NCBI GenBank assembly: GCA_016928095.1
Contig: JAFGLL010000086.1
Location: forward strand, 1 to 34,160
Direction: 5' to 3'
From: Thermoplasmatota archaeon
GTDB lineage: Archaea > Thermoplasmatota > Penumbrarchaeia > Penumbrarchaeales > Penumbrarchaeaceae
Length of the DNA: 34,160 nt
Both the position numbers and the translations under genes were made by a program. Under the pieces are notes generated by a model. The model was not told where the DNA came from. It made no database searches and worked only from the letters and a program-made list of their open reading frames with translations. Positions 13,327 through 34,160 of the stretch are shown in pieces; within the stretch, counting starts at the first letter, position 1; every line of letters begins with the position of its first letter.

Positions 13327-13599
13327 TCAGTAAAAGTTCTTTCTCGGAGGTCTTTCCTCTCGGGGTCTGGCCTCGTTGACCTTGAGGGTCCTTCCCTGAT
13401 ATTCCTTCTGGTCCAGGGCTTCGATGGCAGCTTTTGCCTCGTTATCGTTCTCCATCTCGATGAACCCGAAGCCCTTGGATCTTCCGGTCATCCTGTCCGT
13501 GATCACCTTTGCCGTAATTACCTGCCCGTATTCCGAGAAGAGCTCGCTGAGTTCGTTCTCGGATGTACCAAAGGGGAGGTTCCCCACGTATATGTTCAT
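13327..13599 (-). CDS. RRM-domain RNA-binding protein
   Basis: MNIYVGNLPFGTSENELSELFSEYGQVITAKVITDRMTGRSKGFGFIEMENDNEAKAAIEALDQKEYQGRTLKVNEARPREERPPRKNFY: RNP2 (IYVGNL) and RNP1 (KGFGFIEM) plus a basic tail. The SD AGGAG is 9 nt upstream of the second ATG, so 13599 is preferred over 13608. Confidence 0.93.
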   Translation of the reverse strand: MNIYVGNLPFGTSENELSELFSEYGQVITAKVITDRMTGRSKGFGFIEMENDNEAKAAIEALDQKEYQGRTLKVNEARPREERPPRKNFY

Positions 13600-13797
13600 T
13601 GTCAACATCTCCTGGAACCATGACCGCAGATCGTCCTTTCAGGTGCATCCGGTAGGATGACCTGTTCGGCGGAAAGCGGTCACGGGGACTGATAGGTCTG
13701 GTCCCTAAAACCCCCAAACATTCATCATATTTAAGATGAACAGTTGAAAAACCCCCATTAACGTATATTATTTCATTTTCCATCATTTGGAATTCAT

Positions 13798-18737: not shown

Positions 18738-19571
18738 CTAGTATGATGTCCTGTGCCGGCGGTGGTCCGCTATCCTTGCAGCCACTGCTCCGGCGATAAA
18801 ACCTGCATCGATGTTCACGACCACGAGAGGGGAGCAGCTCTGAAGCATGGCGAAGAGCGCGGTCTCCCCTTTTCCATGGATCCCGTAACCGGTCGAGATC
18901 GGGAGCCCTATGACCGGGATATCGACCAATCCGGAGACCAGCGTTGGAAGGGCCCCCTCCCTACCGGCAGCCACTATCAGCACATCAGCCCCCCACTCCT
19001 TCATGACCTTCAACGGGGTCATGACGCGATGTACCCCTGCGACACCCACATCATGGAAGGCTTTGACCGAACAGCCGAGCTCACCGGCAATGATCTCCGC
19101 CTCCCGTGCGACGGGGATGTCAGAGGTGCCTGCGGTGAGTATCCCCACCCTTCCACCCGAATCCTCTATCTTCCTTTCGCCCTTCCATGCGACCAGCATT
19201 GCAGCATCATCATGCATTTCGTGGTTTACGTCATCCATCGCTTTCTTCAGGGAGTCCATCAAACGATATGAGGTCTCACTGTCGATCCGCGAGACAATGA
19301 CCTTGCCATTCCTTTTCATGAAATCCATTACCGCTCCTTCAAGGTGGATGAAGGACTTGCCCTCGGCGATGATCACCTCCGGAATGCCGGTCCTATGCAT
19401 CCTCCCGGTATCAAGCGTATGGTTCCCGGAGCCGAACAGGCGTTCTTCCAGTTCTTTCTTTGCTTCATCCAGGGTCAATCGACCATCGATCAGGTCCCTC
19501 AGGACATCATCCATGCTGGTAGCATTGGTTATATGATATTTTAGGATTTCAATGGGATCGATGTCCGGCAT
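18738..19571 (-). CDS. larB: LarB, nickel-pincer cofactor biosynthesis (AIR carboxylase/PurE-like)
   Basis: GRVGILTAGTSDIPVAREAEIIAGELGCSVKAFHDVGVAGVHRVMTPLKVMKEWGADVLIVAAGREGALPTLVSGLVDIPVIGLPISTGYGIHGKGETALFAMLQSCSPLVVVNIDAGFIAGAVA is highly characteristic of LarB. Confidence 0.94.
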   Translation of the reverse strand: MPDIDPIEILKYHITNATSMDDVLRDLIDGRLTLDEAKKELEERLFGSGNHTLDTGRMHRTGIPEVIIAEGKSFIHLEGAVMDFMKRNGKVIVSRIDSETSYRLMDSLKKAMDDVNHEMHDDAAMLVAWKGERKIEDSGGRVGILTAGTSDIPVAREAEIIAGELGCSVKAFHDVGVAGVHRVMTPLKVMKEWGADVLIVAAGREGALPTLVSGLVDIPVIGLPISTGYGIHGKGETALFAMLQSCSPLVVVNIDAGFIAGAVAARIADHRRHRTSY

Positions 19572-28132: not shown

Positions 28133-31100
28133 ATGCCTCGGGTAGAGGAAACATCCTGTGAGCGATCCCTATTCGGAGAGTCATTTTCGATATTACTGAT
28201 CATCGTCGTTGTACTCTCCTGTACAGTATGTTTCACTGGACGGATCCAAGACGGCCCAAGAGCTATAGCTATCGATATATCTCCTTCCGAAAAGGATGGC
28301 AGCGATACTAGTGGTCCATCCGAGATAACCGTTTCCTCCCCCGGCGGAAGGACCACTTTCAGACTTATTCTCGGTGGTCCGAACCTCACATACGAGGTAT
28401 GGCTTGGAGGTGAGCGGCTCTTGACCGGTTCGAGATTGGGGCTCTTGCTGGGAGACGGTGACATGATCCCTTCCGGTACGGCTGAACACCTTCGGACCGT
28501 CATGAACACCGTTAAGGAGGAATACACGGTGGCATACGCCGAAGGTTCCCGTTTCGAGGATCACTACAGATATGCCCTGGTAACTCTCAGGGAGAGCCTT
28601 GGCAAGGGGAGGACCTTCGAACTGCATATCAGAGCCTACGACGAGGGTGTCGCTTTCAGGTACGTCGTTCCCGACCAGGAGGGTGTCGGGAGGACGACGA
28701 TCATGGGAGAGGCCACGACCTTCTCCTTCAACGATGACCTTCCATGTTTCGCGGAGTACGGGACGGAAGGGGAATATTCCAGGGTTCAGATCAGCAGGGT
28801 CAGACAGCAATGCGAGGTGCCTCTGGCAGTGGAACTCCCAGATGGACGCTACGTCTCTATCGGTGAAGCCGCTCTTCTGGATCATTCCAGGATGCTGCTG
28901 AAGAACGCTGGCAATGGATCCACCTCCCTTCAGGTGCAGCTCTGCTCGAGGGTTGTTCGGAACCCCGGGTTCGAGACCCCCTGGAGAGTGGTCATCGCCG
29001 GAAATGGTTCCGGGGACCTTATCGAGAACTCCCATATCCTCTATTCCCTTTGCCCGGAGAGCAAACTTAAGGATATTTCATGGATCAGACCCGGGAAGGC
29101 CTTCCGCGATTGTACCCTTACGACCAACGGTTCAAAGGCGGTGATAGATTTCTGCTCCGAGAACGGTCTCCAGTACGTCCATCTTGACGCTGGATGGTAC
29201 GGCAAGGAGTTCGATCCGGGATCTGACGCCAGTTCCGCTTCGGTCCCGGACTTGGATATACCGGAGATAGTCAGATACGGGAAGGATAAAGGGATCGGTG
29301 TCGTACTCTACGTCAACAACCGTTCATTGAGGAAGCAGCTGGACAAGGTCCTTCCGCTCTACCAGGAATGGGGAATAAAAGGTATCAAGTTCGGTTTCAT
29401 GGACGGAAGGACCCAGACCGGGATTAACTTCATTCATTATGCCGTGCAGAAAGCTGCTGAACATGAACTGTTCGTGATAATCCATGATAATTATCGCCCA
29501 ACAGGTCTCACAAGGACCTACCCTAATATCCTATCGGTAGAAGGTGTCAGGGGAAACGAGCACTTTCCGACACCTTATCACAATACTTTACTCCCGTACA
29601 CCAGGTCCGTTTGCGGTCCGATGGATTACACCCCCAGAGCGGTCCCTTACAAAGAACGCACGACATCATGCCATCAGATGGCGCTACCCTTTGTATTTTT
29701 CTCCCCAATGACCTTTTTGTACTGGTATCAGGACCCGATAGCGGTGGCAAGGTCCGGACCGTTCGAGGCCTGGCGGGATCTACCAACGGTCTGGGATGAG
29801 GTGATCTATCCCGATGACATTCCCGGAAGGTATGCTTCTGCATTGAAGAGGAATGGTGACACCTGGTTCTACGGGTTCATCAACGGACCTTCTCCCGCAA
29901 GGGCCGTGGTCGACCTTGCCCCGGTCGGGGAAGGCAGGACATTCGCGGCAACGATCTTCAAGGATGATCACGGGTCCATCGATACGAGAAGGTATCTCGT
30001 GGACAGGAACACGATCATTGACGAGCAGGTGGTTGAGGACGGTGGATCATGCGCCATGATCCGTCCCGCCACGTTGAACGACCTCCGCACCCTTAGCGGG
30101 TATCCTTCCTGGAGCAAGACCTGCACGGAGCTCACGGTGGAAGAAGACAAGGAGATGATGCTGTTCCTGTGCATGCCAGGATCGAACAGATGCAACCTCA
30201 CCTATGATGCTTGGACCGATTCCGACTTCATCTCGTTCGATCCAATGACGGGTACGGTTTCAGGCACTCCGGGAAACGATGACATAGGCAGATATCATTT
30301 CTCGGTCCTGATAAGGTACGACGGGGAACCGATAGGCAGTCTGATGTTCACGATCAATGTTCTCAACACGAACGATCCGCCAATGATAACCGAGCTTCCC
30401 AGATACATAGAGGTCATGCCTGGTGAGGAGCTTCTTGTCGAACCCAGGGCCGAGGACGTGGACCCAACATCCGACAGGTTGATCTGGGATATTGCGGGGG
30501 ATGTATCTTTCGTGAGCATAGACCCATTGACAGGAATATTGCGGGGAACCCCCACCCGCGACGATATCGGGACACATCTTATTGAAGTGAGTGTGGATGA
30601 CGGGAACGGCGGCACATGCACGAGGGAGATGATCTTTCATGTCAACGACACATCGATACAAGAGAAGGTCACGACGTTGGATCGTGTGATCTTTCTGTGC
30701 GAGGATGTCCCCTTCGAGATCGATCTGCGGGAGGAACTGATGCCCGAATGGGAAGCCCATGAAGGACTGATCATCGAGAAGATGCCCGGATTCGTCAGCA
30801 TCTTCGGAGATGGTCCCATATTTCGAGGTATCCCGACCCAGTCGGATATCGGCGTCCACGAGATCTTGATACGCATGAAGACCGAGGGTGAACCCGATGA
30901 GATCGTCCAGTTCAGGATGATCGTCATCGGGACCAACGACCCTCCGGTGTTCGTCAACTCCTCGATCTTCCTCATGACCGCTGTGGGGGAGCATATTGAC
31001 CTCGAGTTCGTTGTTGACGACGAGGACGATGCGAGAGAGGTCCTAACATGGTCCCTGTGGCCCTGCGATGATTTCTTGGCTCTGGACATGAAGGCCGGAA

Positions 31101-31546
31101 CCCTTCAGGGGACCCCGCTCTCTGACGACAAGGGGGTCCACAGGATGGTGCTCAAGGTGACCGATCCCGGGGGAGGAGTGGCAGAGATGGAAGTGACATT
31201 GCTTGTTCTGGCCGAAGGCTCCTTGCTGTCCATTTTCGATGATCGTCCGATCCTGAAACCTAACATAGGTTCTAACGCAACCGGAGTATCTTGCATTCCT
31301 TTGACCATGGTCCGGGTAAGGATAGGTTCCGGCGAGGTGGTGGCGGTCCCAATGACCGATGGGATTGAGCGACTTCTTTCCGGGAACGGGACCTCACCCG
31401 GGGTTATCGATGACAGGCCCGTGATAGAAGAGAAGAGCGATGCGTGGGAGCTTATCCTCCCTCTCTTTGTTATCTCCTTGACAATATGCCTCTTGATGGT
31501 CCTGGTCCTCAACCATTCCGGGAAAGCCCGATCGAAGAAAGGGTAG
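28133..31546 (+). CDS. GH97-family glycoside hydrolase-like enzyme with C-terminal cadherin/Ig-like repeats and a TM anchor
   Basis: N-terminal TM/signal. GH97_N-like EITVSSPGGRTTFRLILGGPNLTYEVWLGGERLLTGSRLGL. Catalytic-region landmarks YVHLDAGWYG, WGIKGIKFGFMDGRTQ, FVIIHDNYRPTGLTRTYPNILSVEGVRGNEH. C-terminal-domain-like PTVWDEVIYPDDIPGRYASALKRNGDTWFYGFING. Three putative-Ig repeats (FISFDPMTGTVSGTPGNDDIGRYHFSV..., FVSIDPLTGILRGTPTRDDIGTHLIEV..., FLALDMKAGTLQGTPLSDDKGVHRMVL...). C-terminal TM LILPLFVISLTICLLMVLVL. Confidence 0.85.
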   Translation: MPRVEETSCERSLFGESFSILLIIVVVLSCTVCFTGRIQDGPRAIAIDISPSEKDGSDTSGPSEITVSSPGGRTTFRLILGGPNLTYEVWLGGERLLTGSRLGLLLGDGDMIPSGTAEHLRTVMNTVKEEYTVAYAEGSRFEDHYRYALVTLRESLGKGRTFELHIRAYDEGVAFRYVVPDQEGVGRTTIMGEATTFSFNDDLPCFAEYGTEGEYSRVQISRVRQQCEVPLAVELPDGRYVSIGEAALLDHSRMLLKNAGNGSTSLQVQLCSRVVRNPGFETPWRVVIAGNGSGDLIENSHILYSLCPESKLKDISWIRPGKAFRDCTLTTNGSKAVIDFCSENGLQYVHLDAGWYGKEFDPGSDASSASVPDLDIPEIVRYGKDKGIGVVLYVNNRSLRKQLDKVLPLYQEWGIKGIKFGFMDGRTQTGINFIHYAVQKAAEHELFVIIHDNYRPTGLTRTYPNILSVEGVRGNEHFPTPYHNTLLPYTRSVCGPMDYTPRAVPYKERTTSCHQMALPFVFFSPMTFLYWYQDPIAVARSGPFEAWRDLPTVWDEVIYPDDIPGRYASALKRNGDTWFYGFINGPSPARAVVDLAPVGEGRTFAATIFKDDHGSIDTRRYLVDRNTIIDEQVVEDGGSCAMIRPATLNDLRTLSGYPSWSKTCTELTVEEDKEMMLFLCMPGSNRCNLTYDAWTDSDFISFDPMTGTVSGTPGNDDIGRYHFSVLIRYDGEPIGSLMFTINVLNTNDPPMITELPRYIEVMPGEELLVEPRAEDVDPTSDRLIWDIAGDVSFVSIDPLTGILRGTPTRDDIGTHLIEVSVDDGNGGTCTREMIFHVNDTSIQEKVTTLDRVIFLCEDVPFEIDLREELMPEWEAHEGLIIEKMPGFVSIFGDGPIFRGIPTQSDIGVHEILIRMKTEGEPDEIVQFRMIVIGTNDPPVFVNSSIFLMTAVGEHIDLEFVVDDEDDAREVLTWSLWPCDDFLALDMKAGTLQGTPLSDDKGVHRMVLKVTDPGGGVAEMEVTLLVLAEGSLLSIFDDRPILKPNIGSNATGVSCIPLTMVRVRIGSGEVVAVPMTDGIERLLSGNGTSPGVIDDRPVIEEKSDAWELILPLFVISLTICLLMVLVLNHSGKARSKKG

Positions 31547-32853: not shown

Positions 32854-32867
32854 AAATATATTTATAG
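32854..32867 (+). promoter_or_regulatory. TATA-like element upstream of the RHH/FtsZ-like cluster
   Basis: 'aaatatatttatag', about 70 bp upstream of the RHH start. Position fits an archaeal TATA box with a TSS at ~32885-32895. Confidence 0.45.
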
Positions 32868-32881
32868 TTAGTAGATACTCA

Positions 32882-32903
32882 CTGTAATACGATAATATTA
32901 CAG
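32882..32903. promoter_or_regulatory. Perfect palindromic candidate operator for the RHH regulator
   Basis: CTGTAATA (32882-32889), spacer CGATAA, TATTACAG (32896-32903). Arms are exact reverse complements. It overlaps the TSS position expected from the TATA-like element. Confidence 0.6.
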
Positions 32904-32934
32904 CTTTGAACTATCAGGGATCGTGGGTGTTAAA

Positions 32935-33318
32935 ATGAGCGGAAGGATAACCACCGTTTCAGCAAGATTCTCTCCTGACCAGGTGGAGATGCTCGATAGG
33001 ATCCAATCGGAGTTGAACATCTCTAAGACGGATGTATTACATCTGGCGCTCGAGAACCTTGAGAAGATCGGCCTGATGCCGAGGGTGAAGAGAGTGGAGG
33101 TCCTGATATCGGCCGACTCCATGAAAAGGGCAGCAAGGCTGCATGAATATTATCAGTACGGCACTTCTCTTGATGCACTGCTTTCCGAAGCTCTCGAGCT
33201 GGGGATCCGGGAGATAAGGACAAAGCTCATGGCGGACAGGAAAGAGGATACGGAGCTTGCACGTGTCGATATGGATGCAAGGTCCATAGAGATGCAGCAG
33301 GATTCGATGACAAGGTGA
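32935..33318 (+). CDS. Ribbon-helix-helix (CopG/MetJ-Arc type) regulator; CdrS/CdrL-like by context
   Basis: MSGRITTVSARFSPDQVEMLDRIQSELNISKTDVLHLALENLEKIG has an RHH pattern (beta strand, helix, 'N-I-S-K-T-D', helix). The second part 'KRVEVLISADSMKRAARLHEYYQYGTSLDALLSEALELGIREI' resembles a second RHH. ATG 32935 is preferred to the listed GTG 32923. Confidence 0.78.
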   Translation: MSGRITTVSARFSPDQVEMLDRIQSELNISKTDVLHLALENLEKIGLMPRVKRVEVLISADSMKRAARLHEYYQYGTSLDALLSEALELGIREIRTKLMADRKEDTELARVDMDARSIEMQQDSMTR

Positions 33319-33436
33319 TGATCGAAGTTCGAAGGACCACAGGGATGCATGGTCCTCAACCGAAACAACGACCGCTTGCGGGGAACGGACGCGGTCTTCG
33401 AGCCTTTCCGGGCGATCAAAAAGGAGGGATGGAACA

Positions 33437-33631
33437 ATGCTACTGGATGAAGAGGGTCTGACGGAAAAAGCGAAAAGTGATCTGCTATACCTTGAGCAGC
33501 TGAACTCGTATGCGGAGAACACGAAGAACACTCCCGAATACATCCGTGCGATGGCGATGTACACACACGCTCTGCATGTGATAGATGAAAGGTACGGGAA
33601 CATCCAGCATCTGATATACCGGTCGAAGTGA
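33437..33631 (+). CDS. Small helical protein of unknown function (64 aa)
   Basis: ATG preceded by 'aaaaaggagggatggaaca' (SD GGAGG). Followed after 13 bp by the FtsZ-like gene. Confidence 0.55.
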   Translation: MLLDEEGLTEKAKSDLLYLEQLNSYAENTKNTPEYIRAMAMYTHALHVIDERYGNIQHLIYRSK

Positions 33632-33644
33632 GGTGGGTAGTTCC

Positions 33645-34160
33645 ATGATAGGTTCAGCCGATCCTTCCTCAAGGTCAGATAAGGTCCTGGTCATCGGGGT
33701 AGGTAGCGGCACGAGTCGTCTTATAAGGTCCGTCCACGAGACCTCGGGGCCGAACATAGACACCCTTTACATCACTACCGATGAGGAAGATATCAGGCAG
33801 ACAAGGGCCGATACCAAGTTCCTCATCGGCAGGCGTCTTTGCGGGGGTAAGGGTGCCATGGGTCTCATCGAGCTCGGTGAGCGGGCCGCGGAGGATTCAA
33901 GGCGCGACATCGAACCTTTCATGGAAGGATACAATCTCATAGTCCAGATAGGATCGCTCGGCAAGGGAACTGCCAGCGGCGCATCTCATGTGATCGCAGC
34001 GATAGGGGAAGGCCTGGGTGCAACCGTGTTGAACTTCCTCATTCTGCCATCGGCAACGCTCGAATCGATGTCTAGGACAATAGCCAACCACGCAAAGAAC
34101 AGCATGATCAAAAGGGGATTCAAGGTAGTGTCGATAGACCAGGACAGGTTCCAGGAGATC
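33645..34160 (+). CDS. 3'-truncated FtsZ/tubulin-superfamily protein with degenerate GTP-binding signature
   Basis: My translation from ATG 33645 (SD GAGGTGGG): MIGSADPSSRSDKVLVIGVGSGTSRLIRSVHETSGPNIDTLYITTDEEDIRQTRADTKFLIGRRLCGGKGAMGLIELGERAAEDSRRDIEPFMEGYNLIVQIGSLGKGTASGASHVIAAIGEGLGATVLNFLILPSATLESMSRTIANHAKNSMIKRGFKVVSIDQDRFQEI. It follows the FtsZ order: VIGVG..., NTD-like TTDEED, IG...T.G.GA.G...G..AAEES, GGGTGTG-like GKGTASG. It has no stop in the window, so the ORF track omits it. Confidence 0.8.
   Translation, partial: MIGSADPSSRSDKVLVIGVGSGTSRLIRSVHETSGPNIDTLYITTDEEDIRQTRADTKFLIGRRLCGGKGAMGLIELGERAAEDSRRDIEPFMEGYNLIVQIGSLGKGTASGASHVIAAIGEGLGATVLNFLILPSATLESMSRTIANHAKNSMIKRGFKVVSIDQDRFQEI

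Follow-up and report, generated by a model that had tools for sequence, protein, structure and literature searches.

A conserved GTAWTAC box pair and a putative autoregulatory circuit at a ribbon-helix-helix–FtsZ-like locus of Thermoplasmatota

The locus and its conserved genes

The window, which is the whole stretch of 34,160 nucleotides that was analyzed, ends in three genes on the forward strand. They encode a predicted ribbon-helix-helix (RHH) protein, a small helical protein, and a noncanonical member of the FtsZ family, here called FtsZL.

32935..33318, + strand: 127-aa protein with two RHH units and a long C-terminal helix (AlphaFold model, Foldseek); orthologues in 10/10 family genomes
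33437..33631, + strand: 64-aa helical-hairpin protein (two-helix model); in 10/10 family genomes, 56-91% identity
33645..34160, + strand: FtsZL, cut by the contig end; PF00091, no FtsZ_C, T7 loop altered, FtsZ-like C-terminal peptide

The 127-aa protein matches no RHH model of Pfam or NCBIfam, and a sequence search of the PDB returned nothing. Its AlphaFold model is of moderate quality (pLDDT 74, pTM 0.35) and contains the ribbon-helix-helix arrangement twice, with helices at 14-27 and 31-45 and again at 60-73 and 79-126. The clearest Foldseek matches to this model are CopG, Arc, and the RHH antitoxins; their E-values are weak (best 0.41), and the match to CopG superimposes with an rmsd of 1.0 A over 41 residues (probability 0.96, E = 0.67). 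Going by the model, the protein is a member of the RHH (CopG/Arc/MetJ) fold, and its N-terminal strand, T-x-S-A-R, is invariant across the orthologues. Elsewhere in the phylum, the search for RHH homologues gave only matches of 20-26 bits in 7 genomes, with no convincing FtsZ adjoining them.

The 64-aa protein is the most conserved of the three. It was absent from the four other genomes of the class that were compared, its model is a two-helix hairpin (pLDDT 81), and it is a candidate partner of either FtsZL or the RHH protein.

The FtsZL gene of the window is truncated at the contig end (34160), and the portion present matches PF00091 at 1.4e-15. The full-length features were read from relatives, in which the protein is ~350 aa long and scores 54-67 bits against PF00091; a search for the FtsZ_C domain gave no match. 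In 7/7 full-length FtsZL proteins, the T7 loop NLDFAD (canonical NxDFAD) is replaced by a SLTISD-type sequence that retains the last Asp alone. The C-terminus, DRW(E/D)(I/V)PM(I/V), aligns with the canonical DRFGIDFIR, and the peptide DRWEIPMIR resembles the DRFGIDFIR of the canonical FtsZs in the same organisms. Two canonical FtsZs (164 bits) are encoded elsewhere in the genome, on contigs C93 and C66, where an RHH neighbor was not found, and SepF is also encoded elsewhere in the same genome. Judged by these comparisons, FtsZL is a third, accessory FtsZ beside a complete set of FtsZ1, FtsZ2, and SepF. Since the GTPase fold and the C-terminal peptide are kept and the catalytic T7 loop is changed, FtsZL probably modulates filaments rather than replacing FtsZ1 or FtsZ2. 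The genome also encodes a fourth member of the tubulin superfamily (G000:C51:11400-12983, L081), which is 527 aa long, highly divergent, and below the PF00091 cut-off.

The trio of RHH, 64-aa, and FtsZL genes is common to all 10 family genomes, and its neighbors, as identified by sequence inspection, are NUDIX-like, nitroreductase-like, and imidazolonepropionase-like genes. The preliminary description of this DNA had noted a possibly duplicated RHH domain, an additional 64-aa protein, and a noncanonical type of FtsZ, with no obvious haloarchaeal context. All of this agrees with the model and with the relatives, in which both neighbors are conserved; those relatives that bear public names are Thermoplasmatota MAGs. 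The gap of 118 bp between the RHH and 64-aa genes could carry a separate promoter, which would count against reading the trio as a single operon.

The rest of the window contains a gene for a 93-aa protein with a single RRM (PF00076, 2.8e-25; 13327-13608), found here in an archaeon, and one for a large, presumably exported glycosidase of the GH97 family with Ig-like domains (28133-31546). There are also a LarC-like nickel-insertion gene (PF01969; 11260-12039) and a LarB-like gene with an AIR-carboxylase domain (18738-19571), which point to a pathway for the nickel-pincer cofactor whose genes are dispersed along the window.

GTAWTAC boxes at the promoter and in the RHH gene

The features upstream of and within the RHH gene are as follows; those marked unstranded have no assigned strand.

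32854..32866, + strand: TATA-like run AAATATATTTATA of the RHH promoter; A/T run in 11/11 orthologous loci
32882..32903, unstranded: exact 8-6-8 palindrome, unique in the genome at 0-2 mismatches
32884..32890, unstranded: putative operator box 1, GTAATAC (consensus GTAWTAC); pair in 11/11 loci
32895..32901, unstranded: putative operator box 2, ATATTAC, which departs from GTAWTAC at one position and starts 11 bp after box 1; pair in 11/11 loci
33034..33040, unstranded: intragenic box GTATTAC, codons GTA-TTA-C of Val34-Leu35-His36; exact GTAWTAC in 11/11 loci

The palindrome CTGTAATACGATAATATTACAG reads CTGTAATA-CGATAA-TATTACAG and lies 15 bp after the TATA-like run and 31 bp before the RHH ATG (32935). 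The preliminary description had reported it as exact, about 15 bp after a TATA-like element and about 30 bp before the ATG, and these measurements match. The genome scan that it proposed returned the palindrome's own site as the sole match with 0-2 mismatches in 2.8 Mb. At 3 mismatches, nine further matches appeared against 7 for a control pattern, and shuffled sequence gave 0.07 matches per window with up to 3 mismatches allowed. Another of its proposals, a comparison of orthologous promoters, had a divided outcome: the exact 8-6-8 form occurs in the window alone and was rejected as a conserved feature, whereas a pair of GTAWTAC boxes set 11 bp apart recurs at every locus. The palindrome is one species' realization of the better-conserved pair.

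The comparison covered 11 orthologous loci in 10 genomes, a second contig of genome G003 providing the eleventh. These represent five genera only, so the independent evidence amounts to about five events. This additional RHH-FtsZL locus of G003, on contig C58, was considered as a true duplicate and set aside; it is probably a contaminating contig because its gene order is the same. Some of the box pairs are given here.

Window: GTAATAC-GATA-ATATTAC
G006: GTAATAC-AAAA-GTATTAC
G009: GTAATAC-TCTC-GTATTAC
G011: GTTATAC-GAGT-GTAATAC
G008: GTATTAC-ATCC-TTAATAC
G004: GTAATAC-ATCT-ATAATAC

The arrangement GTAWTAC-N4-GTAWTAC, with box starts exactly 11 bp apart, is present in 11/11 loci, and in 10/11 the pair has no more than one mismatch. 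Among the other spacings between 7 and 25, none gave a pair of that quality in the 11 loci, and 0 to 4 of 2000 dinucleotide shuffles per locus equaled it. The pair travels with the RHH gene across differing upstream neighbors, which are AcnX in some genera and an ABC transporter in others. The first box follows the A/T run by 15-18 bp at every locus. In archaea, transcription is expected to start ~25 bp after the TATA element, so with this gap the pair covers the expected start site. Each box is itself palindromic, which would suit one RHH dimer per box. These 11 loci give comparative support to the view that an RHH operator lies where transcription is predicted to start and, with it, to autoregulation.

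The same 7-mer occurs once, without mismatch, in every RHH reading frame, at Val-Leu/Ile-His/Gln after a conserved SKTD. One could consider this a codon or mRNA feature, such as a rare-codon pause or an RNA structure, that matches the promoter box by chance. The Leu codon is TTA in 5/5 loci that have Leu, and TTA is rare in these genomes (0-5% of Leu codons); pairs of rare codons are able to slow translation. However, the other 6 of the 11 loci use the Ile codon ATA (6/6), which is not rare (23-45% of Ile codons), the flanking codons vary freely, and the 7-mer, identical to the promoter box, is nearly missing from the remainder of ~3 kb. This explanation is accordingly rather improbable. The Val codon is GTA in 11/11 loci, GTA being 8-18% of Val codons, and in the whole RHH alignment no codon apart from it and the TTA/ATA codon that follows has an invariant third base. 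Counting one locus per genus, the chance of such constancy is ~1e-9, and the box remains intact even where RHH protein identity drops to ~31%. An auxiliary operator preserved by codon choice is proposed. Its distance from the promoter pair (~135-180 bp) keeps no helical phase, so rigid looping between the boxes is not supported, and a role as a roadblock or in nucleation would be more likely than phased looping.

Boxes of this kind are also found before other genes: in these genomes, the remaining perfect arrays with 11-bp spacing stand immediately ahead of short CopG-type RHH genes. Three perfect GTAWTAC boxes in 11-bp steps lie directly before a gene for a 79-aa CopG-type RHH protein (G000:C108:68408-68436, L078), and near-perfect triple arrays precede a 63-aa gene in G011 (L127) and an RHH-like start, MQTVTAKIT..., in G012 (L128, L129). 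No homologue of the window's RHH protein was found in G012, so the simplest account of the array there is an operator for the short protein itself. These arrays support GTAWTAC as an RHH-type operator box, with cross-regulation possible: other RHH proteins of the same genomes may share the box and could bind at the RHH-FtsZL promoter. The array at L078 adjoins an integrase-like gene. At up to one mismatch, tandem pairs number 1-4 per family genome, overall not above the control pattern; they comprise the promoters of the loci themselves, those of short RHH genes, and a small number of scattered matches, some inside large ORFs. At 2 mismatches there were 17 matches against 19 for the control, and as this is no excess, a genome-wide regulon based on the tandem pair was rejected; targets with a single box may exist. 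A literature search for the strings GTATTAC/GTAATAC yielded nothing relevant.

An RNA leader and a complementary RNA

The gap between the RHH and 64-aa genes contains a conserved RNA leader, parts of which are complementary to an RNA encoded elsewhere in the genome.

33333..33416, + strand: conserved RNA leader; covariance model R1, 10/11 loci; Rfam none
33333..33356, + strand: leader hairpin P1, conserved loop GGGATGC (33342-33348); covariation
33370..33396, + strand: leader hairpin P2, GACCGC/GCGGTC; paired in 5/5 model sequences
33403..33419, + strand: leader tail CCTTTCCGGGCGATCAA; 17-nt complement to the ncRNA
G000:C47:12038-12127 (L163): unannotated ncRNA; homologues L162-L191

Covariance model R1 was built on five loci and recovers the leader in five further loci at 36 to 53 bits, with G009 the sole miss. 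Three pairs of the P1 stem are changed on both sides among the 5 sequences, and alignment by hand brings out more covariation. P2 is invariant across the five and gains no covariation support from them. The MFE z-scores of the leader are unremarkable, so the case for it is one of conservation and covariation, not of stability. For the leader tail, cis pairing with the Shine-Dalgarno sequence of the 64-aa gene is predicted; CCTTTCCGGGC stands directly before this Shine-Dalgarno sequence. The CCUUUCC of the leader is a possible anti-Shine-Dalgarno sequence.

R1 also matched the opposite strand of a conserved intergenic locus, and this is how the ncRNA came to light. It was detected in 153/296 Thermoplasmatota genomes, usually once per genome, and has a C-rich loop, GUGCAUCCCAUCCCC, that is invariant in the family, as well as a 3' T-run. 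Neither the ncRNA nor the leader has a match in Rfam. The strand of the ncRNA was assigned from its G.U pairs and 3' T-runs. The idea that the locus carries a copy of the leader in the same sense was dropped: the G.U pairs of the helix become A.C mismatches on the leader-like strand, the T-runs agree with the opposite strand, and, from one species to the next, base changes in the two RNAs correspond in trans. The C-rich loop could target Shine-Dalgarno regions.

The ncRNA loop complements the GGGATGC of the leader, and the leader tail is complementary to the ncRNA segment GCCCGGAAAGG. Perfect complementarity extends over at most 17 nt in G000 and over at most 14 nt both in G004 and in G005-G007, each exceeding the cross-genus pairings, although shuffles of a single genome occasionally reach 12-15 nt. 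In G008 the complement is only 11 nt, and the G000 ncRNA matches that genome's leader better. The G003 ncRNA is cut by a contig end, and none was found in G010, a genome that is 68% complete. In G009, which is without the leader, the loop region of the ncRNA has an 11-nt complement in the start region of the 64-aa gene, AGGGGATGGGA. Pairing in trans is plausible from these complementarities.

A tentative extension of this would be a circuit of two layers, in which RHH autorepression through the promoter pair and the intragenic box is joined by leader/ncRNA pairing that switches on FtsZL. The leader would expose GGGAUGC and CCUUUCCGGGC for pairing with the ncRNA loop UGCAUCCCAUCCC and its tail-complementary segment; pairing at the CCUUUCC tail would then free the Shine-Dalgarno sequence and turn FtsZL on, uncoupled from its repressor.

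Proposed autorepression, its alternatives, and related systems

The locus is, with fair confidence, an autoregulated operon of the RHH, 64-aa, and FtsZL genes in which the RHH protein would serve as a dedicated autorepressor. Tandem-RHH copies would bind the two adjacent 7-bp boxes one helical turn apart and, by covering the start site, block RNA polymerase, bringing about negative autoregulation of the whole operon, with the intragenic box backing up repression as an auxiliary operator. The output of FtsZL would thereby be kept low and steady and be released when RHH activity falls.

The best-known counterpart is the CdrS-FtsZ2 module of haloarchaea, where, too, an RHH gene immediately precedes a gene of the FtsZ family and the two apparently form an operon. 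RHH-ftsZ synteny outside haloarchaea has already been published, as cdrS-ftsZ2 synteny across archaea (PMC7439475), and the locus might be a plain member of that module, with a CdrS that activates ftsZ2 and other division genes genome-wide. In Haloferax volcanii, CdrS binds at 18 genomic places, and its sites lie for the most part 41-110 nt ahead of the start of transcription (PMC8406309). In contrast, the boxes described here overlap the predicted start site of their own operon, and the tandem operator is essentially a once-per-genome site, the box scan giving little beyond that promoter and those of short RHH genes. CdrS is one short RHH, compared to a tandem RHH of 127 aa with a long helix here. 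Its partner is the canonical ftsZ2, whereas the partner here is a noncanonical third FtsZ with an extra 64-aa gene, and the canonical FtsZs lie elsewhere with no RHH neighbor. The intragenic box and the RNA leader are further differences. Plain membership is thus unlikely, and the CdrS-like character suggested earlier was not borne out in the strict sense, the locus being set apart by its partner, its domain count, and the position of its operator.

Autorepression would bring the locus closer to CopG, Arc, and the RHH antitoxins, which share the RHH fold and act at short palindromic boxes about one helical turn apart in their own promoters; here, there are two RHH units per chain, no toxin partner, a box in the coding sequence as well, and a tubulin homologue as partner. 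A toxin-antitoxin-type module, in which the RHH protein is the antitoxin-like member, FtsZL or the 64-aa protein poisons the division ring, and the boxes serve antitoxin autoregulation, would fit the antitoxin-like fold, the identical box arrays before short CopG-type genes, and an FtsZ whose altered T7 loop could make it dominant-negative, but it is very unlikely for a set of three genes that has no toxin family match, is vertically conserved in every family genome, and shows no sign of mobility.

Two other known systems are related in part. FtsZl1 and FtsZl2 (Makarova and Koonin 2010, PMC2875224) are likewise FtsZ-superfamily proteins additional to conventional FtsZ; FtsZL differs in aligning over its full length with FtsZ, in its C-terminal peptide like DRFGIDFIR, and in its operon, and its locus lacks the vWA/kinase/GTPase neighborhood of the FtsZl1 type. 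The sRNA162 of Methanosarcina mazei (PMC3510493) is likewise an independent ncRNA, for which pairing with a transcription factor-encoding mRNA is predicted. Compared to it, the ncRNA described here is another RNA with another target and has a phylum-wide hairpin with an invariant loop, its pairing being computed only. As far as the literature search found, the trio with FtsZL, the GTAWTAC operator with its 11-bp spacing, the operator embedded in codons, and the complementarity between leader and ncRNA are apparently new.

To our knowledge, the timing of cell division in archaea is largely open, and the principal RHH-FtsZ circuit backed by experiments is CdrS-FtsZ2. The locus would be a second RHH-FtsZ circuit, built around a different tubulin, and its codon-preserved operator would be a rare clear case of its kind. 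The ncRNA family is apparently undescribed and is spread through the phylum; if real, the leader/ncRNA pair would represent trans-acting RNA control of an archaeal cytoskeletal protein.
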